Assembly: GCA_002355495.1 (NCBI GenBank)
Contig: AP017424.1
Span: 992,001-1,056,000, forward strand
Direction of reading: 5' to 3'
DNA: 64,000 nucleotides
Source of the DNA: Streptomyces laurentii
GTDB taxonomy: Bacteria; Actinomycetota; Actinomycetes; Streptomycetales; Streptomycetaceae
Below are positions 15,490 to 37,905 of the stretch, piece by piece. Under the pieces are notes generated by a model that saw nothing but the letters and a program-made list of their open reading frames with translations, had not been told where the DNA came from and did not search any database. A program made the translations under genes and the position numbers. Each line of letters opens with the position of its first letter. Positions within the stretch are counted from its first letter, which is position 1.

Positions 15490-16662
<1,173 letters not shown>

Positions 16663-16834
16663 GGGCGGCGCGCTCCTTCCCCGCCGGGCCCGCGCGGGCC
16701 CGGCACCGCACCGATGCTGCCCCGGGGCGGGACGCGCGCGGGGCGGCAGGCGGCGGGGGCGGCGGAGTGTGCCCGTTCGGCGGGTCGAGGGCCGCGCGCC
16801 GAGGGCCCCGGCGTGGCTCACCCGGGGGTGCGAG

Positions 16835-17011
16835 TCACATGAGGCCTGCCCGGGTGACGAACACGGCGAGGAGGACCACCAGGGTCCAGCCGAGAATCCG
16901 CTCCAGGATCCGGGGGCCGTCGTCCTTGGGGCCGCCGGTACGGGCGCCCGCGCGGACCCTGGGCCCGGTACGCCGGTGACCGGGTACGGGCCGGTGTCGG
17001 CCCGTACCCGG
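16835..17011 (-). other. Start-less open frame encoding a small membrane peptide
   Basis: On the minus strand a frame open from 17011 to the TGA at 16835-16837 ends in ILERILGWTLVVLLAVFVTR plus AGLM, a convincing membrane helix preceded by a polar segment with GGPKDDGPR. It contains no usable ATG, GTG or TTG before the helix, and its upstream part runs into a terminator hairpin. It may be a decayed or frameshifted small membrane protein gene, or may start at an unusual codon. Confidence 0.4.
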
Positions 17012-17017
17012 TCACCG
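16974..17017 (-). terminator. Terminator of the OYE reductase gene
   Basis: A perfect 19-bp stem (16974-16992 with 16999-17017) has a 6-nt loop and begins 17 nt after the reductase stop on the minus strand. Confidence 0.85.
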
Positions 17018-17033
17018 CGGGATCGTCGGTACC

Positions 17034-18161
17034 TCAGCTGAGGGACTTCAGCGCGGCCGCGTCGTACGCCTTCAGCTCGTCGGTCCGGCCCGCGAGGACC
17101 TTGGCCGCCCACTCCGGGTCCTGGAGCAGGGCGCGGCCGACGGCGACCATGTCGAACTCGTCGCGCTCCATGCGGTCGAGGAGGTTGTCGAGGCTGCCGA
17201 GCTCGGCGCCCTTGCCCGCGAAGGCGTGGATGAAGTCGCCGTCGAGGCCGACCGAACCGACCGTGATCGCGGGCCGGCCGGTGAGCTTCCGGGCCCAGCC
17301 GGCCAGGTTCAGGTCCGAGCCCTCGAACTCCGGCAGCCAGTAGCGGCGGGTGGAGGCGTGGAAGGCGTCGGCGCCGGCCGCGGCGAGCGGGGCCAGGATC
17401 GCCTCCAGCTCCTGCGGGGTCCCGGCGAGCCGGGCGTCGTACGCCTCCGACTTCCACTGCGAGAAGCGGAAGATCACCGGGAAGGCGGGCGAGACGGCCG
17501 CCCGGACCGCGGCCACGATCTCGGCCGCGAACTTCGTACGGGCCACGGCGTCGCCGCCGTAGGCGTCGGCACGGCGGTTCGTCCGCTCCCACAGGAACTG
17601 GTCGACGAGGTAGCCGTGGGCGCCGTGCAGCTCGACGCCGTCGAAACCGATCCGCTCGGCGGCCGCGGCGGCCTCGGCGAAGGCGCCGATGACGTCGTCC
17701 AGGTCGCCCTGGGTCATCGCCTTGCCGGTGCCCTCGGTGCCGTCGAGGCGGATGCCGGAGGGACCCATGGCGGGAGCGTCGGCGTAGGGGGCCTGGCCCT
17801 GCTCGCGCACCATGCCGATGTGCCACAGCTGCGGCACGATCGTGCCGCCCGCCGCGTGCACGGCCTCGGCGACCTTCGCCCATCCGGCGAGCTGCTCCTC
17901 GCCGTGGAACCGCGGCACGCGGTCGCTCTGCCCGGCCGAGTCGTGGCCGACGTAGGTGCCCTCGGTGACGATCAGGCCCACGCCCGCGGCGGCGCGGCGG
18001 GCGTAGTACGACAGCACGTCGTCGCCGGGAACGCCGCCGGGAGAGAACATGCGCGTCATCGGCGCCATCGCGATGCGGTTCGGAACGGTCAGGCCGTTCA
18101 GGGTGACGGGCCGGGACAGGATCTCGGCCGCGCGGGAGGCGGGGGACGCGGTGACGGTCAC
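17034..18161 (-). CDS. Old yellow enzyme family NADH:flavin oxidoreductase
   Basis: A 375-residue FMN-dependent ene-reductase fold. Visible landmarks are LTVPNRIAMAPMTRMFSPGG near the N-terminus, the substrate-binding ELHGAHGYLVDQFLWERTNRR stretch, and GSVGLDG and MVAVGRALLQDPEWAAK for phosphate binding of FMN. The family reduces activated C=C bonds of electrophilic compounds with NAD(P)H. I choose GTG 18161 because GAGGAG lies 7 nt upstream; an ATG at 18176 is in frame but overlaps that site. It is divergent from a MarR gene with overlapping promoters, the usual arrangement for a MarR-repressed detoxification enzyme. Confidence 0.88.
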   Translation of the reverse strand: MTVTASPASRAAEILSRPVTLNGLTVPNRIAMAPMTRMFSPGGVPGDDVLSYYARRAAAGVGLIVTEGTYVGHDSAGQSDRVPRFHGEEQLAGWAKVAEAVHAAGGTIVPQLWHIGMVREQGQAPYADAPAMGPSGIRLDGTEGTGKAMTQGDLDDVIGAFAEAAAAAERIGFDGVELHGAHGYLVDQFLWERTNRRADAYGGDAVARTKFAAEIVAAVRAAVSPAFPVIFRFSQWKSEAYDARLAGTPQELEAILAPLAAAGADAFHASTRRYWLPEFEGSDLNLAGWARKLTGRPAITVGSVGLDGDFIHAFAGKGAELGSLDNLLDRMERDEFDMVAVGRALLQDPEWAAKVLAGRTDELKAYDAAALKSLS

Positions 18162-18223
18162 AGGGAGGCTCCTCATGGCTACGGGACAACCTTGATGCTT
18201 GAGAACTTCATGCAATGACAAAG

Positions 18224-18270
18224 ACGGTAGAACTCGATATTTGAGATAGTCAAGTTTCATTGGGTAAAGT
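18224..18270. promoter_or_regulatory. Divergent overlapping promoters with shared palindrome (OYE/marR)
   Basis: Plus strand: TTGAGA (18241-18246), 18-nt spacer, TAAAGT (18265-18270), ending 6 nt before the marR ATG, so leaderless. Minus strand: TTGACT (18253-18248), 18-nt spacer, TACCGT (18229-18224). Both -35 boxes are arms of TTGA-N5-TCAA (18241-18253), a likely MarR operator. A dimer bound there would cover both promoters. Confidence 0.75.
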
Positions 18271-18276
18271 GCTCCC

Positions 18277-18714
18277 ATGACAGAAGCTCCCCGCACCGAC
18301 ACGGCCCGGCTCATGGAGCTGCTCTCGGTGTCGCTCGGCGTCTACTACGGCGACTTCACCATCGCGGCGGCGAGTGAGAACCTCACGGCGAGCCAGGGCA
18401 AGGCCCTCACCGTGCTGCGCCGGGGACCCGCCGCGATGCGCGCCCTGGCCGAGACCATGACCTGCGACGCCTCCAACATGACCGGGATCATCGACCGGCT
18501 GGAGAAGCGCGGCCTGGTGCGCCGCGAGGCCAGCCCCTCCGACCGGCGCGTCAAGAACGTCATCCTCACCGCCGAGGGCGAGCGGGTCACCGACGCGATC
18601 CGCGCGAAGATGCACACCACACGGGACGGCCTCGACCGGCTGAGCGACGAGGAGCGGGACCGCCTGTACGTGCTCCTGGAACGCGCCTTCGTCACCCGGC
18701 CCGCCTGCTCCTGA
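18277..18714 (+). CDS. MarR family transcriptional regulator
   Basis: A 145-residue MarR-type winged-helix regulator. The recognition helix region MTCDASNMTGIIDRLEKRGL and the wing RREASPSDRRVKNVILTAEG, with the family's D-x-R, are clear. It probably represses itself and the divergent ene-reductase, sensing an electrophilic or phenolic compound. There is one Cys in the HTH (CDASNMTG) and one next to the C-terminus, which could make it redox or electrophile sensitive. The mRNA appears leaderless. Confidence 0.92.
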   Translation: MTEAPRTDTARLMELLSVSLGVYYGDFTIAAASENLTASQGKALTVLRRGPAAMRALAETMTCDASNMTGIIDRLEKRGLVRREASPSDRRVKNVILTAEGERVTDAIRAKMHTTRDGLDRLSDEERDRLYVLLERAFVTRPACS

Positions 18715-18758
18715 CCCGGAACGTCCCGGCCCGGAACGTCCTGGCCCGGAACGCAAGG
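18715..18758. repeat. Three tandem copies of a 15-bp unit
   Basis: CCCGGAACGTCC(C/T)GG occurs at 18715-18729 and 18730-18744, followed by a diverged third copy to 18758, directly after the marR stop codon. Confidence 0.8.
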
Positions 18759-18835
18759 CCAGAGGGTCGCACCCACGCGCATACGCCGACGCCGCACCCG
18801 ATGAAGCGGGGCGGCGGACGCCCCGGCCCTTCACT

Positions 18836-18868
18836 CCCCTCGCTCTCCCGAGAGCGCGAGGGGGTTTT
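18836..18868 (+). terminator. Terminator downstream of marR
   Basis: CCCCTCG-CTCT pairs with AGAG-CG-CGAGGGG (CG bulge) and is followed by the T-rich tail TTTTCTTATTT. Confidence 0.75.
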
Positions 18869-18880
18869 CTTATTTCTCCA

Positions 18881-19004
18881 CGGATAAACGTCGATTCCTA
18901 TGCGATAGATCACAAAGGACATAGACGGCATGGGTGCCATGCCCGGTATCAACGAATGGACCTCGCCGGGGATTTGCCTGAAACTGCCTGGTGATCAACT
19001 TTGA
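18881..19004 (+). promoter_or_regulatory. Leader module copy 1: Crp-like site plus short upstream ORF
   Basis: An AT-richer stretch is shared almost base for base with 21500-21600. The core ATTCCTATGCGATAGATCAC (18894-18913) has only 2 differences from the second copy. Its reverse strand carries GTGATCTATCGCAT, near the Streptomyces Crp motif GTG-N6-GNCAC. A 24-codon ORF (18930-19004) encodes MGAMPGINEWTSP and so on, similar to the start of the ORF in the second copy. The rest of the 454-nt gap 18715-19168 holds only the repeat and terminator listed. Confidence 0.6.
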
Positions 19005-19168
19005 GTCTGCTGTGGGTACCCGGGGGGACAGTGCAGCCCTCGTCGACCATGCCCGCGGCGTGCTCGTGGAGACCCGGACCTCCCAGTGGCGGCCGGCTCG
19101 GGGCGGTTCTCTTTCGACGCTCCGAGGCGCCGCTGCCCGGTGGATCCCCGAATTCGAGGAATCACTTG

Positions 19169-21292
19169 ATGCCACGCGCCAGACGCGTACGTCTCACCAC
19201 ACTCGCCACCGCGCTCTTCGCGATCCCGGCCGCCGTGTACGCCGCGCCGGCTTCCGCCGTCACGGGCCCGGTCACCGCGGACGCCGGTTACGCCTTCACC
19301 GCCCGCCTGGATCTGGGCGACGGCCAGCGCGCCTGCTCGGCGGCGCTGGTGGCCCCGCAGTGGCTGGCCACCTCCGCCAGCTGCTTCTCCGACAACGGCA
19401 CCGCGCAAGTCGCCGCGGGCAAGCCCAAGTCGAAGACGACGGCCACGATCGGCCGCACCGATCTGACCACCACGACCGGGCAGGTCCGTGAGGTCGTCGA
19501 GCTCGTGCCCCGTGAGGACCGGGACCTGGTCCTGGCACGTCTCGCCTCCCCGACCACCGGGATCACGCCCGTGGCGTTCGCCAGGACCGCGCCCGCCACA
19601 GGAGACGCCCTGACGGTGGCCGGTTTCGGCCGGACCAAGGACGAGTGGTCGCCGCTCAAGCTGCACACCGCCGCCTTCACCGTCGACTCCGTGTCCGGCG
19701 GCACGCTGGCCATGCACGGCACCTCCGCGGCGGACGCCATCTGCGCCGGCGACGCGGGCGGTCCGATCGTCCGGCAGAAGGACGGCAAGACCGAGCTGGT
19801 CGCCGTCAGCAGCCAGTCCTGGCAGGGCGGTTGCTTCGGCGCGGACCCGGCCGAGACCCGTAACAGCGCCGTCTCGACCCGGCTGGACGACGTGGCCTCC
19901 GGCAACACGCTCCCGGCCGGCGGGGTGCTCAAGCCCGGGGACTCCCTGACGGCCGGCATCAACCGCGTGACGATGCAGACCGACGGCAATCTGGTCGTCG
20001 CCCGCGCGGGCACCACCGTCTGGTCCACCAAGACCGGCGGCCACCCGGGCGCGACCGCCCGTCTCGACGCGCAGGGCAACCTCGCCGTCCTCGAAGCGGA
20101 CGGCACCACCGTCCTGTGGGAGACCAAGACCAGCGCGCCCGGCGGCAAGGCCGTCCTGCAGGAGCGCGGCAACTTCGTCGTCCACAACGCCAAGAACGAG
20201 TCGCAGTGGGCCGCCGGCACCACGGTCCGTCACGACTACAACGGCGACGGCCGCAGCGACATGGCCGACTGGTACGACTACGCCGACGGCAGCGACAAGA
20301 TCCACGCCTTCCCGGCCAAGGCCGACGGCGGCTTCGACGCGCCCGTCCACGGCTGGGAGGCGCCCGCCGGCAACTACTACGCCGAGAACATGAAGCGCGT
20401 CACGGGCGACTTCAACGGCGACGGCATCGGCGACGTGGCCAGCCTCTACGGCTACTCCACCGGCGAGGTCGCCCTCCTCACCTGGCTGGGCAAGGGAGAC
20501 GGCTCCTTCGCCGCGCCCCTGCACTCCTGGAAGGTCGCCTCCGGCTGGACCTTCTCTCGTATGACCCCCGTCGCCGGCGACGTCAACGGTGACGGCCGCG
20601 ACGACGTGGCCGTCTGGTACGACTACGCCGACGGCAGCGACAAGATCCACACCTTCCTCTCCAAGACCGACGGCGGCTTCAACAGCCCCTTCGTGGCCTG
20701 GGAGACGCCGGCCGGCAACTACTACCGCGAGAACATGAGGTTCGTCTCCGGCGACTACAACGGCGATGGCCGCGACGACCTCGGCGTCCTCTACGGCTAC
20801 TCCACCGGCGAGGTCAAGCTCATCACCTGGACCGCCAAGCCGGACGGTGGCTTCAACACGCCGGTGGGCGGCTGGAGTTCCGCCACGGGCTGGGAATTCA
20901 AGCGCGCCACCCCCTACTCCGGGGACTTCGACGGCGACGGCCGCGACAACGTGGCCGTCTGGTACGACTACGCCGACGGCAGCGACACGGTCATCGGCTT
21001 CACGCCCAGCGGTACGGACGGCAAGTTCGGCGGCCGCACCGACCTGTGGACCACCCCGGCGGGCAACTACTACCGCGAGAACATGCAGGTGGTGACCGGG
21101 GATTACAACGGTGACGGCCGCGACGACCTGGCCACCTTCTACGGATTCTCCGACGGCTCGGTCAAGACCATCACCTGGACCGCCAAGGCCGGCGGCACCC
21201 TCAACGGCCCGCTGCACAGCTGGCAGGCCGCCACGGGCAACTGGTCCTTCGGCCGCGTCCACATGATCGAGCGCTACAACAACCCGTCCTGA
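19169..21292 (+). CDS. Secreted pseudo-trypsin / bulb-lectin / FG-GAP repeat protein
   Basis: A 707-residue secreted protein starting at ATG 19169 (GAGGA 8 nt upstream). A signal peptide of about 30 residues ends in a cluster of Ala. Residues about 35-245 follow the trypsin fold, but the catalytic His of TAAHC is Ser71 (TSASC) and the nucleophile of GDSGGP is Ala196 (GDAGGP). Only the Asp (D119 in RDLVLARL) remains, so the domain should be proteolytically dead. Residues about 247-353 are a bulb-type lectin domain with QTDGNLVV, DAQGNLAVL and ERGNFVVH motifs. Residues about 356-707 are six FG-GAP/VCBS repeats with DxNGDGxxD calcium loops, alternating WYDYADGSD and YGYSTGEV types as three pairs. 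It is a likely extracellular carbohydrate- or surface-binding protein. It has a leader homologous to that of the nuclease gene downstream. Confidence 0.88.
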   Translation: MPRARRVRLTTLATALFAIPAAVYAAPASAVTGPVTADAGYAFTARLDLGDGQRACSAALVAPQWLATSASCFSDNGTAQVAAGKPKSKTTATIGRTDLTTTTGQVREVVELVPREDRDLVLARLASPTTGITPVAFARTAPATGDALTVAGFGRTKDEWSPLKLHTAAFTVDSVSGGTLAMHGTSAADAICAGDAGGPIVRQKDGKTELVAVSSQSWQGGCFGADPAETRNSAVSTRLDDVASGNTLPAGGVLKPGDSLTAGINRVTMQTDGNLVVARAGTTVWSTKTGGHPGATARLDAQGNLAVLEADGTTVLWETKTSAPGGKAVLQERGNFVVHNAKNESQWAAGTTVRHDYNGDGRSDMADWYDYADGSDKIHAFPAKADGGFDAPVHGWEAPAGNYYAENMKRVTGDFNGDGIGDVASLYGYSTGEVALLTWLGKGDGSFAAPLHSWKVASGWTFSRMTPVAGDVNGDGRDDVAVWYDYADGSDKIHTFLSKTDGGFNSPFVAWETPAGNYYRENMRFVSGDYNGDGRDDLGVLYGYSTGEVKLITWTAKPDGGFNTPVGGWSSATGWEFKRATPYSGDFDGDGRDNVAVWYDYADGSDTVIGFTPSGTDGKFGGRTDLWTTPAGNYYRENMQVVTGDYNGDGRDDLATFYGFSDGSVKTITWTAKAGGTLNGPLHSWQAATGNWSFGRVHMIERYNNPS

Positions 21293-21372
21293 TCTTCCCC
21301 CGCCTCCGCACGGCGCGCCGGTCCGCGTTCCCGTAGCACCGGCCTCGCTCCGGAGGGCGCTGCCGCCTGTAC

Positions 21373-21410
21373 GGCGAGACCGCCGCTTCCCAGGGAGCGG
21401 CGGTCTCGCC
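21373..21410 (+). terminator. Hairpin terminator
   Basis: A perfect 15-bp stem (21373-21387 with 21396-21410) has an 8-nt loop, 80 nt after the pseudo-protease gene. Confidence 0.85.
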
Positions 21411-21496
21411 GCGCCCGGACGCGCCGCCGCACGACGGCCCGTCCGGCACCACCCGGGGGCGGGGAGGCCGAACCGCCGGATCAAGGTCGACCTTTC

Positions 21497-21620
21497 CGAA
21501 ATAAACCAGAATTCCTGTGCAATAGATCACGAAGAGAATGGCCGACATGCACGCTATGTCGACTATCTCCGAATGGATCTCCCGTTGGATTTCCTCAATA
21601 CTTGCCGATGCTCAACTCCC
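21497..21620 (+). promoter_or_regulatory. Leader module copy 2: Crp-like site plus upstream ORF start
   Basis: Homologous to 18881-18985. The core ATTCCTGTGCAATAGATCAC spans 21511-21530. On the reverse strand it gives GTGATCTATTGCAC, close to the Streptomyces Crp motif. The ATG at 21547 begins MHAMSTISEWISRWIS, aligning with the upstream ORF of copy 1 without gaps. It lies about 490 nt ahead of the nuclease start. Confidence 0.6.
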
Positions 21621-21888
21621 CGGCCTCTTACGGACACTCGGCAGGACAGTGCCCTTCGCCGGTCACGCCCTCACCGATTCGAGCGGATCCCCGAAGGAGA
21701 GCAATGCGCCGGCCGGCCCGAATCGCCCTTCCGGTTCGAGCGCGCGCTTTCTCCATTCGAGTCCGAAATCGGCATCTTTCAGGGAAGGCCACCGGGGCAC
21801 CGATTCCCTTTTCCGAGCAATTACCCGAGGCCTCGAATCCGGCGATCTCGCGCCGGTGAGGGTGACGACACCCAGGGCTTCCGGATGA
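21547..21888 (+). other. Open frame in the 720-nt leader of the nuclease gene
   Basis: A 113-codon frame begins with the peptide conserved between the two leaders. After about 30 residues it becomes Ser/Pro-rich sequence with poor codon bias and a TTA codon (21628-21630), so coding is doubtful beyond the start. The DNA is less GC-rich than its surroundings and carries several ATTCGAG/GTTCGAG repeats (about 21676-21760). Apart from this, gap 21293-22012 holds only the terminator and leader module. Confidence 0.35.
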
Positions 21889-22012
21889 TCCTCGCGCGCG
21901 GGCACCCGCCGCGGCACCGCCCTCGCGCCGAAGGATCCGCCGACCACGTCCGGGCGCCGTCCGAGCACCGGATCCTCCCGACGCTTTCCCCACCGCGAAA
22001 GGAACGACGCGT

Positions 22013-23962
22013 ATGCATCCGATACGGCCGATACGCCCCGCACAGAGACGCACCCGCTCGGCCGTCATGGCCCTGCTGACCACGGTGACGCTGGGCCTCG
22101 CCACGCTCGGTACGAGCCCGGCGGCGCAGGCCGCGGAGGAGAAGCCGCGGCAGGTGGCCGGGGCGGCCCCGACCGCCCCGGCGAAGGCCTCGGCTCCCAC
22201 CACCGCGATCAGCTCCTTCCCGAAGACCTCCAAAGAGCGCTGCGAGCCCACGGCCGCGGGTTCGAAGGAGCGTCAGGCGGGCGCCGTCCAGGCGTGTGTG
22301 AGCACGAGGCCCGCCCCGGCGAAGCGCGCCGCGAAGCAGGAAACGACGAAGCCGCAGGGCCTCGCGGCGGCAAGCACGGGCAGCTGTGACATCACCAGCC
22401 CCGGCACCTACTCCTACGAGCGCTTCGAGTACTGCGTGACCGGAGTGAACGTCGTCTACATCCTGCGCGACAGCAACGCCAAGGAGATCGGCCGCGGCAC
22501 GCTGGAGATCTCCGCCGGGGCATCGCTCCAGAAGGCGGCCACGACCTGGAACGAGCAGGTCACCGTCAAGATGACCGCCGCGAGCGGCGACGTCACCGCC
22601 CTCAACGCCAAGTTCCGCTCCTCCTGCGGGTCCGGCTGCACGGCGACGAAGACCGCGCCCTGGTACGGGGGCGACCTGACCCTGGGCCAGTCCCTCACCG
22701 GCACCGTCTCCTACTCCTCGTCCCCCGCGGCGGGCGCCGCCTCCGAGTTCGTCACCTCGTACAAGATGTACGTGACCTCTCCCGGTGCCACGGCGGTCGA
22801 CCCGAACGCCTCCTGGGACAACCCGCGCAAGATCCGCTGCGACAACGCGGTCGGGGGCACCTCGCCGGCGGGCTGCGCCGTCCCCTCCGTCATGCCCGTC
22901 GTGAAGATGCACGCGCAGAGCGCCGACCCCGGCGCCGCCGTCGCCGCCTACCAGTGGGCACAGAAGAACCTCAACGACGCCTGGGGCAAGGGCAAGCCGC
23001 TGACCCGGGCGACGAGCGGCGTGGATGGCCGCTCGGCCAGCACCTGCGGCAATTTCCAGGTGCTGACGGACCTCGTCGACAACGACACCTGCGGCGAGTT
23101 CCCCTTCGCCGAGACGAAGGAGGGGGGAACCAGCGGCGATCAGTGCGTCGAGATGATCTCCAACCTCGGCAACCGCGAGTGGGACGCGTACGTCCTGGGC
23201 AACGCCAAGGAACTGGACAGGTCCCGGCCCTGCGTCCAGGCCCATGTCCCGGCCGCCGACAAGCAGTTCGCGGACGCGCAGCTCACCGAGGGCTTCGCGG
23301 ACCAGCGGGTGATCGACGCCGACCAGTTCGAGGTTGAATTCACCACGCCGAACACCGGCCCGCACGCACGCTGCCTGGACACCACGCCGATGGGTTCGGT
23401 CCCCAACGGTGACGGATGGATCCTGAACACCACCGAGGCGGTCGACCACGTCAACAAGACGACGACCCCGCCCGGCGCGGCCGGAGCCCGACCGACCCGA
23501 GCCGAGGCGTGCATCGGCAAGAAGATCGGGAAGGGATCCTCCGCTCAGGGAGACATCGTCGGGTGGCAGGACGCTCAGCTGTTCAAGCAGGCGAACTCGC
23601 CCACTTCGGGCTCGCTGGCCCGGTGCCACCTGATCCCGAACGTCGTCGGCGGCAAGGGCATCCGGGTCAATCTCGTCCCCTGCTGGCAGGCGGGGATGAA
23701 CACCGGTACACCCAGCATGCGGACCTTCGAGGCCATGGCGGAGACCCTGGTCAAGTCCACCGACCTCAATGTCTTCGGAACGGACGACGCGATCTCCTAT
23801 CAGGTAACGCCCGTTTACACGGACGCCACCAGCACCATCCCGGTGGGAGTCACCATGAGCGCTGATGTCGAGCGGGCGAACGGGGCGGTCGAGCAGCTGT
23901 TCCCCAACGTCTACGTCCCCAACACCCAGGGAGACACCCTGTTGCTCAACCTCGGCAACTGA
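22013..23962 (+). CDS. Secreted protein with NucA/NucB-like and Endonuclease_NS_2-like domains
   Basis: A 649-residue secreted protein starting at ATG 22013 with AAGGAA upstream. A signal peptide with likely cleavage after AQA (about residue 41) is followed by a long beta-rich N-terminal region (to about 330) of unknown fold. Residues about 335-440 resemble the NucA/NucB DNase family around TCGEFPFAETKEGG, but the usual CDEYPF Asp is Gly361. The C-terminal part (about 530-649) matches the DNA/RNA non-specific endonuclease NS_2 pattern: RCHLIP with His539, NLVPC, a FEAMAETLV helix, then YQVTPVYTD and VTMSAD. It is a likely extracellular nuclease for nutrient scavenging or competition; the toxin-like NS_2 fold also occurs in polymorphic toxins. 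It shares a leader module with the pseudo-protease gene. Confidence 0.75.
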   Translation: MHPIRPIRPAQRRTRSAVMALLTTVTLGLATLGTSPAAQAAEEKPRQVAGAAPTAPAKASAPTTAISSFPKTSKERCEPTAAGSKERQAGAVQACVSTRPAPAKRAAKQETTKPQGLAAASTGSCDITSPGTYSYERFEYCVTGVNVVYILRDSNAKEIGRGTLEISAGASLQKAATTWNEQVTVKMTAASGDVTALNAKFRSSCGSGCTATKTAPWYGGDLTLGQSLTGTVSYSSSPAAGAASEFVTSYKMYVTSPGATAVDPNASWDNPRKIRCDNAVGGTSPAGCAVPSVMPVVKMHAQSADPGAAVAAYQWAQKNLNDAWGKGKPLTRATSGVDGRSASTCGNFQVLTDLVDNDTCGEFPFAETKEGGTSGDQCVEMISNLGNREWDAYVLGNAKELDRSRPCVQAHVPAADKQFADAQLTEGFADQRVIDADQFEVEFTTPNTGPHARCLDTTPMGSVPNGDGWILNTTEAVDHVNKTTTPPGAAGARPTRAEACIGKKIGKGSSAQGDIVGWQDAQLFKQANSPTSGSLARCHLIPNVVGGKGIRVNLVPCWQAGMNTGTPSMRTFEAMAETLVKSTDLNVFGTDDAISYQVTPVYTDATSTIPVGVTMSADVERANGAVEQLFPNVYVPNTQGDTLLLNLGN

Positions 23963-24001
23963 GCACACCCGCCTCGTCAGTTCGCGCCATCGGGAGCCGG
24001 C

Positions 24002-24163
24002 ATGAGTTTCACCACCCCACCGCGGCCGCTCGACGTCACCGCGCTCCTTCCTCGGCCGGCCCCGCCGGCGCGCCCGGCGACCCGGCCGCATCCCCGGCCC
24101 GGATCGCCTTCCTGACACCACAGTTCCGCCGGCGGGCCGCCGCTGTGGCCTGACGACCCCGGG
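24002..24163 (+). pseudogene. Remnant of a conserved Streptomyces protein N-terminus
   Basis: The ATG at 24002 (GGGAG 7 nt upstream) opens MSFTTPPRPLDVTALLPRPA, continuing RPHPRPGSPS to an in-frame TGA at 24113. Reading through the stop gives HHSSAGGPPLWPDDPG. Together these match the beginning of a streptomycete protein family I recall as starting T(T)PPRPxDVxALFP...RLHPRPGSP...DSSVGGPLLWPADEPWP. The remainder of the gene is absent and a terminator follows. This fits a decayed, truncated gene. Confidence 0.6.
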
Positions 24164-24190
24164 CCGGTGCCGGCCCGGGGTCGTCAGGCC
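24147..24190. terminator. Bidirectional hairpin terminator
   Basis: A perfect 20-bp stem (24147-24166 with 24171-24190) with a GTGC loop lies between the convergent nuclease and C39 peptidase genes. It overlaps the end of the gene remnant. Confidence 0.9.
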
Positions 24191-24218
24191 GCCGGCGCGG
24201 ACGTGACGCCGCGTCCGT

Positions 24219-25637
24219 TCAGAGCACGCCCAGCGACTCCAGTGCGCGGCGCTGGGAGGGGGTCGGTTTGGCGGGCCAGTAGAGGTAGCAGACCCCGCCC
24301 GAACCGCTTCTGACCTTGCCATTCGCGTCGTACCGCTTCGTCCGCAGCCAGATGTTCTCCCACTCGCGGCGCCGGTAGACGCGGCGGACGGCCACGTCGC
24401 TGGGCGAGGCCGGGTCGTTGGCGATCACGTCGCCGTCGGCGGTGAAGCCGATGACCGTCATCAGGTGGCCCGAGGTGCCGTAACCCGCGCCGGTCAGCTC
24501 CGCCTTGAGGAAGGACTGGGAGGTGATGACCGGGACGCCGGCCCGGATCAGGGTCTCCACGTCGGTGAGCGAGCGCAGCCGGGTCACCACCGCGTTCATG
24601 TCGGTGTACGAGGCGGCGTAGGCGGCGTTGAAGGGCCAGTTACCGCAGCCCTCGTACTGGTGGTCGTAGGTGAACCGGGCGGCATGGCAGACCTGGGGGT
24701 CGGCGTACTCCGGGTTGACCCAGGCCAGGTCCTCGGCGGTGGGGCGGCGGTCCCAGTACTCGATGATCATCTGCGAGGAGGTGGGGCTGCACCAGGCCTC
24801 GCCCCCGTTGTCGTACTCCGGGTACTGGCCGACGTGGATGTTCTGCGAGTAGCGCGGCACGGTCAGTTCGCGGTCGAGACCGGGCGTGGACGCGGGCACC
24901 GTGAACCGGTCGGGGACGTCCGAGGCCATCGCGCCGATCCGCCACACCGTCGGCGTGAGGGTGGTGCCGGGCGTGCGGTAGAGGGTGAGCCGCAGCCGGT
25001 ACGAGACGAGCCGCAGCCCGCTCGCCGGGTCGTCGACCGAGAAGGTGTCCGTCCAGATCGACGCCTTGCCGTCGGTCTGGTCGTCGACCGAGGTACGCCG
25101 GATGTCGGTGTCGCCCGCGGCCCAGCGGCCCATCACGAACCAGGGCGTCTCGGTACCGTCGCCGTACGTGCCGCGCAGCTCCACCTGGAGCCAGGTGCCG
25201 GCCGGGGTGTCGGCGTTCCAGGAGGCGACGAGCTCGGTGGCCGGGACGGTGGAGGTGTGGCGGGGCGAGGTCCAGCTCGCGTACTCCCAGCCGCTCGTCC
25301 GCCCGGTGTGCGGGTCGGTGTACTCGGTGGTGCCCGCCGGGGTGCCGATGACGAGACCGGGGCGGCGGCCGGAGACGGCGCGGGTGCCGGCGGGCGTGCC
25401 GCAGCGCCAGTCGGTGTACGTGTGCCAGAAGCGGTTGTCGACGGCTCCGGCCGCCGGCGGGGCCTGGCCGGCCGTCGTCGTGACGGCCTCGTCGCCGCAG
25501 GTGTCGCCCCCGGCGCCGCACGGTGCGGCAGCGGCGGCGGAGGCGGGGATGGTGCTCGCGGCGGTGGCCGCGACCGTGCCGGCGGCCGTCGCGAGGGCGG
25601 CGGCGAGGACGGTTCTGCGCGGGGTGGCAGGGGGCAT
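24219..25637 (-). CDS. Secreted C39-type cysteine peptidase-like protein
   Basis: A 472-residue secreted protein. The N-terminus TPRRTVLAAALATAAGTVAA resembles a Tat-type signal. A beta-rich region follows (about 60-250, with FWHTYTDWR and repeated WTS/WRIGAM segments). The peptidase C39-like domain (about 260-460) has the presumed catalytic Cys in GGEAWCSPTSSQMI (about 283), His in GTSGHLMTVIGF (about 391) and the third residue in VIANDPASP. The VPRYSQ entry motif of the C39_2 family is present. Substrate unknown; family members cleave peptides or act on cell-wall material. It ends at a shared terminator with the convergent nuclease gene. Confidence 0.82.
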   Translation of the reverse strand: MPPATPRRTVLAAALATAAGTVAATAASTIPASAAAAAPCGAGGDTCGDEAVTTTAGQAPPAAGAVDNRFWHTYTDWRCGTPAGTRAVSGRRPGLVIGTPAGTTEYTDPHTGRTSGWEYASWTSPRHTSTVPATELVASWNADTPAGTWLQVELRGTYGDGTETPWFVMGRWAAGDTDIRRTSVDDQTDGKASIWTDTFSVDDPASGLRLVSYRLRLTLYRTPGTTLTPTVWRIGAMASDVPDRFTVPASTPGLDRELTVPRYSQNIHVGQYPEYDNGGEAWCSPTSSQMIIEYWDRRPTAEDLAWVNPEYADPQVCHAARFTYDHQYEGCGNWPFNAAYAASYTDMNAVVTRLRSLTDVETLIRAGVPVITSQSFLKAELTGAGYGTSGHLMTVIGFTADGDVIANDPASPSDVAVRRVYRRREWENIWLRTKRYDANGKVRSGSGGVCYLYWPAKPTPSQRRALESLGVL

Positions 25638-37768: not shown

Positions 37769-37777
37769 CACCCGCCG

Positions 37778-37905
37778 CGCACTGCCTCCCATCCGGACTT
37801 TCACCGTCGGTCCAGGAATCTCACCTGGTCAACCGGCCGCTGGCTGCGGACGGGTCGCGGACTATAACCGCCGGTTCGGAATTACACCGACCCCGGAGTG
37901 CGCTG
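37778..37905 (-). ncRNA. FMN riboswitch (RFN element)
   Basis: Read on the minus strand the region contains the conserved RFN segments in order: GGGGTCGGTGTAATTCCGAA, CCGGCGGTTATAGTCCGCGA, CCGGTTGACCAGGTGAGATT, CCTGGACCGACGGTGAAAGT and CCGGATGGGAGGCAGTG. It would repress the rib transcript when FMN is abundant. It sits at the head of ribD-ribE-ribM-ribBA-ribH-hisE-hisG. Confidence 0.95.

Follow-up and report, generated by a model that had tools for sequence, protein, structure and literature searches.

In Streptomyces, the AT-rich DNA that follows the end of a preceding gene is the expected place of a promoter and transcript start, and duplication of the promoter regions of neighboring genes is a general phenomenon. 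The AT-rich control regions of acquired genes may also be bound by Lsr2, for whose targets in Streptomyces AT-rich 20-mers and AT-rich cores have been described (PMC6584129). Two further motifs relevant to such regions, GTG(N)6GNCAC for Streptomyces Crp and GTG(N)8CAC for GlxR, are quoted in PMC10033298.

The DNA analyzed here (the window, whose numbering is used throughout) comprises 64,000 nucleotides, positions 992001-1056000 of an 8.03-Mb single-contig genome. It contains a locus that resembles the duplicated promoter regions of neighboring genes, in that a local upstream segment occurs twice, in the same orientation and each time before a gene. It differs from them in that the downstream genes are non-homologous and the copies, old by their 33% difference, are unknown elsewhere in the genomes searched. 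With the Lsr2-bound regions (PMC6584129) it shares AT-rich 20-mers and cores, a location upstream of accessory genes and a genome that encodes Lsr2; however, Lsr2 does not need homologous sequence, and the leaders described here are candidate targets by sequence. The resemblance to Crp/GlxR sites is uneven: copy 2 has the GlxR form GTG-N8-CAC, whereas copy 1 is without its first half.

Homologous segments upstream of two unrelated genes

Gene A (19169..21292, + strand) encodes a secreted trypsin-fold pseudo-protease with B-lectin and FG-GAP repeats, and gene B (22013..23962, + strand) a secreted protein with an Endonuclea_NS_2 nuclease domain and orthologues in other genomes. Both point rightward, and each is preceded by a long region without recognizable protein coding. 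The preliminary description had reported a gapless alignment of 18894-18985 with 21511-21602, with two differences in the first 20 nt; both statements hold (63 identities in 92 positions; exactly two differing positions), and the ungapped match proves to be longer than first claimed. Copy 1 spans 18884..19000 (+ strand), 169-285 nt upstream of the start of gene A, and copy 2 spans 21501..21617 (+ strand), 396-512 nt upstream of that of gene B, with 79 of 117 positions identical. This ungapped core scores 42, whereas no shuffle exceeded 15; for local alignment of the whole leaders the score is 51, and 500 shuffles averaged 14.2 and reached at most 22. A weak gapped continuation of copy 1 (19003..19100, + strand; counterpart at about 21618-21720) has a local score of 17, which is barely significant (shuffle p 0.002-0.01). 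The flanks before 18884/21501 show no significant match (shuffle p 0.22), and neither do those after about 19110 in the same kind of test.

The encoded proteins are indeed unrelated, gene A combining trypsin, B-lectin and FG-GAP domains and gene B having Endonuclea_NS_2, and the homology is limited to the upstream segment, whose position fits a promoter or 5' leader. These observations support the original contention that the control region was duplicated and not the genes. By its divergence the duplication of this shared stretch appears old. The copies differ by 38 substitutions and no indel in 117 nt, while the next approximately 100 nt contain several indels; a gapless stretch beside a gapped tail would fit a constraint on spacing.

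Position, base composition and a proposed duplicated promoter

The MarR gene is followed by a hairpin resembling an intrinsic terminator (18835..18864, + strand; T-rich tail, -21.9 kcal/mol for a folded stretch of 58 nt), and copy 1 lies directly after it; copy 2 begins about 90 nt after a strong hairpin that follows gene A (21373..21410, + strand; -45.4 kcal/mol for a folded stretch of 56 nt). Thus, 15-90 nt separate each copy from the hairpin at the end of the preceding gene, and the distance to a start codon downstream is 169-512 nt. Of the four spots in the window with the lowest GC content, two are the copies (0.51 and 0.46 versus 0.73 GC) and another is the intergenic region 18137-18329, between the OYE-type and MarR genes.

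The explanation that we favor, and to which we give an even chance, is that of a locally duplicated AT-rich promoter/5'-leader segment inside an accessory cassette. An AT-rich promoter together with the start of its 5' leader would have been duplicated long ago within a cassette of secreted-protein genes, such that genes A and B would each be transcribed from their own copy of the same control region. By inference, each copy would contain a transcription start, both would still be active on their genes, and the two would respond to a common input. In favor of this proposal, the homology is far above chance and restricted to the upstream segment; each copy is placed between the hairpin of the preceding gene and a start codon; both have kept a very low GC content; indels are absent from the 117 nt and present in the adjoining stretch; and the genes sit in a variable slot, with homologues elsewhere having other upstream DNA. 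Against it, a consensus scan of 18700-22100 recovered no recognizable sigma-70 promoter, and a 24-nt core within the module shows no significant excess of conservation over the remainder. This core has 21 matches and gives a Fisher p of 0.02 when the split is hand-picked; in a scan allowing for that choice, an equally good 24-nt window arises in 28% of random mismatch placements (p=0.28).

If the copies are active promoters, they would represent a small and clear case of regulatory rewiring in which a promoter was copied instead of a gene, within a cassette that encodes accessory secreted proteins. The duplicated segment reveals no new regulon or regulatory mechanism.

Genomic context and distribution

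Among five loci with gene B orthologues, a homologue of gene A is found within about 5 kb in four, and in the fifth the contig ends too early; A and B are therefore parts of a single, loose accessory cassette. Nearby in the gene A/gene B loci elsewhere are also an ALF-repeat protein and an uncharacterized downstream gene. The recurring cluster (L005, L006, L008 and L009) contains a pseudo-trypsin gene, a small secreted protein, an ALF-repeat protein, an Endonuclea_NS_2 nuclease and, right after the nuclease, an uncharacterized gene without a Pfam match, which possibly encodes its immunity protein. In our window the gene that comes after gene B in other Streptomyces survives as a pseudogene remnant at 24002..24166 (+ strand; 71% identity over 56 aa, with an internal stop). 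The 720-nt gap between A and B contains copy 2 and no ALF gene; compared with the ALF-repeat gene located before gene B in other species, of which it might be a relic, it yielded no match.

Beyond this remnant lies a C39 peptidase gene (24219-25637) with matches in 385 of 393 genomes, and on the other side an acyl-CoA dehydrogenase gene (start near 16650, end 15490). In two genomes (G408 and G293) these two genes adjoin each other and the slot is empty, and in another (G335) one large RHS/SpvB/PT-HINT gene fills it. Comparison of gene order thus shows the A/B pair to occupy a variable slot (15490-25637; L078, L079 and L086) bordered by two conserved genes, those for the C39 peptidase and the acyl-CoA dehydrogenase.

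The 8.03-Mb genome contains exactly two copies of the module, both by the 24-nt pattern (up to 3 mismatches) and by a 121-position profile. When 393 genomes of the genus were searched, the only further site recovered by the pattern had 3 mismatches (L004) and was located before a gene of another kind; the profile gave 10 weak matches where about 20 are expected by chance, the best of them (L097 and others) with E values of 0.002-0.05. Nothing above chance was recovered from 60 relatives or from plasmid and phage collections; viral contigs gave eight exact 17-mer matches, for which a rough chance estimate is about 20. The earlier suggestion that the module controls an extracellular regulon finds no support here, since the genome has just two copies and the 393 genomes yielded none above chance. 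The sample, approximately 390 genomes from a larger genus, apparently lacks a very close relative (best identity at the neighboring core gene 86%), so a sister species may carry the module.

Orthologous regions without the alignment had been named beforehand as an observation that would refute the original interpretation, and such regions are what was found for both genes. Local alignment to both copies detected no module at five Streptomyces/actinobacterial loci with gene B orthologues (51-70% identity) or at the gene A homologues fetched. A profile search of both strands of 34 loci gave the same result, as did the regions upstream of the gene A paralogues in the genome of the window. The DNA upstream of the orthologues of both genes is unrelated.

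Alternative explanations

The main rival, which we regard as a tentative possibility of some weight, is that the segments are non-functional remnants: a stretch would have been duplicated locally, perhaps as part of a larger unit that has since had its genes exchanged for others, and the upstream pieces would simply not have decayed yet. Identity between the copies is uniform along the segment at 67%, and no feature stands out. The differing sites have a higher GC content (0.66 in copy 1 and 0.50 in copy 2) than the identical sites (0.44), as drift towards the genomic GC content predicts, and the cassette holds another decaying piece in the pseudogene at 24002-24166. Decay of this kind fits less well with 117 nt free of indels beside a gapped tail, or with the very low GC content retained by both copies where a promoter is expected. 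Uniform identity of this degree is what a decaying duplicate would show too, which counts, as does the absence of the module from the relatives searched, against the promoter explanation; two sequences cannot separate constraint from decay.

It is also conceivable, though rather unlikely, that the shared part matters as AT-rich DNA on which the nucleoid protein Lsr2, a silencer of acquired genes, would nucleate; this would be compatible with the copies being promoters. Both leaders fall in the top 1-2% of the window's 500-nt windows for the AT-rich 20-mers and cores described as target features (PMC6584129), the genome encodes two Lsr2 proteins, and the cassette is accessory. However, in a genome of 73% GC an equally high score would be expected of any AT-rich promoter, and since Lsr2 needs no homologous sequences it does not explain the homology. 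Distinctly speculative, and to our minds improbable, is the idea that the 120-nt leader, specific to this lineage and with a 5' hairpin, serves as a portable regulatory cassette, copied to put the unrelated secreted nuclease under the regulator of the pseudo-protease gene, or the reverse.

The proposal that a conserved leader peptide or an RNA element (an attenuator or riboswitch-like structure) controls both genes appears very unlikely. The peptides of the two short ORFs are as first stated, namely MGAMPGINEWTSPGICLKLPGDQL at 18930..19004 (+ strand) and, in copy 2, a frame with an in-frame ATG at 21538, which makes it a 116-aa ORF starting MADMHAMSTISEWISR (21538..21888, + strand), and both frames are open through M.AM..I.EW. 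Yet the mismatches in this frame are spread over the codon positions (7/10/8), 13 of the 16 changed codons are non-synonymous, and the amino acid identity of 11/24 is that predicted from nucleotide identity (null 9.2 +/- 1.6, p 0.20), leaving the short ORFs with no sign of coding constraint. The frames of the two copies part by an indel at about 19001. GC3 of the 116-aa frame is 0.66, against 0.95 in gene A and 0.92 in gene B, and with no Pfam match and no homologue above chance this ORF is probably not a gene. A search of 349 genomes for a homologous peptide returned only chance-level matches, and none is present upstream of the gene A/B homologues in other genomes. A conserved peptide, as earlier envisaged, is thus not borne out.

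As for an RNA element, a faint hint survives in a small predicted hairpin of copy 1 (GGCATGG-GTG-CCATGCC; 18927..18943, + strand) and its counterpart in copy 2, CGACATGCACGCTATGTCG (21543..21561, + strand), in which one pair is changed on both sides. All six pairs of this 6-bp hairpin are kept through three changes (p about 0.09), and in the two sequences available 2 of 22 predicted pairs are changed on both sides. Its arms contain the CATG...ATG that had been read as two Met codons of the ORFs. In contrast, the leaders fold no better than shuffled sequences (z-scores -1.45 and -0.47) and neither matches an Rfam family. The window's single Rfam match is an FMN riboswitch elsewhere (37775-37905, - strand), well above threshold.

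Control of both genes by Crp through a GTG-N6-GNCAC-like site is the least probable of these proposals and can be set aside as the cause of the homology. A near-match in both leaders had originally been noted, and the site does fall in the best-matching stretch (TATGCGATAGATCACA at 18899..18914 and TGTGCAATAGATCACG at 21516..21531, both + strand); copy 2 fits the GlxR form GTG-N8-CAC as it is quoted in PMC10033298, and the genome encodes Crp-type HTH proteins. However, these are chance-level matches to 5 and 6 of the 7 specified bases, respectively, copy 1 being the weaker, the core shows no excess conservation, and such matches are as frequent as in shuffles (8 versus 8.0; window-wide, with up to one mismatch, 358 versus 354 expected).

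The gene A family

Gene A is a member of a widespread Streptomyces family of trypsin-fold proteins without a full catalytic triad. In the 33 homologues compared, the histidine position is occupied by Ser, Ala or another residue in all but one, the serine of the GDSGGP motif is replaced by Ala or Thr in all but three, and the catalytic His and Ser are found together in none. The combination of an inactive protease fold with FG-GAP and lectin parts suggests that members of this family have a binding role.
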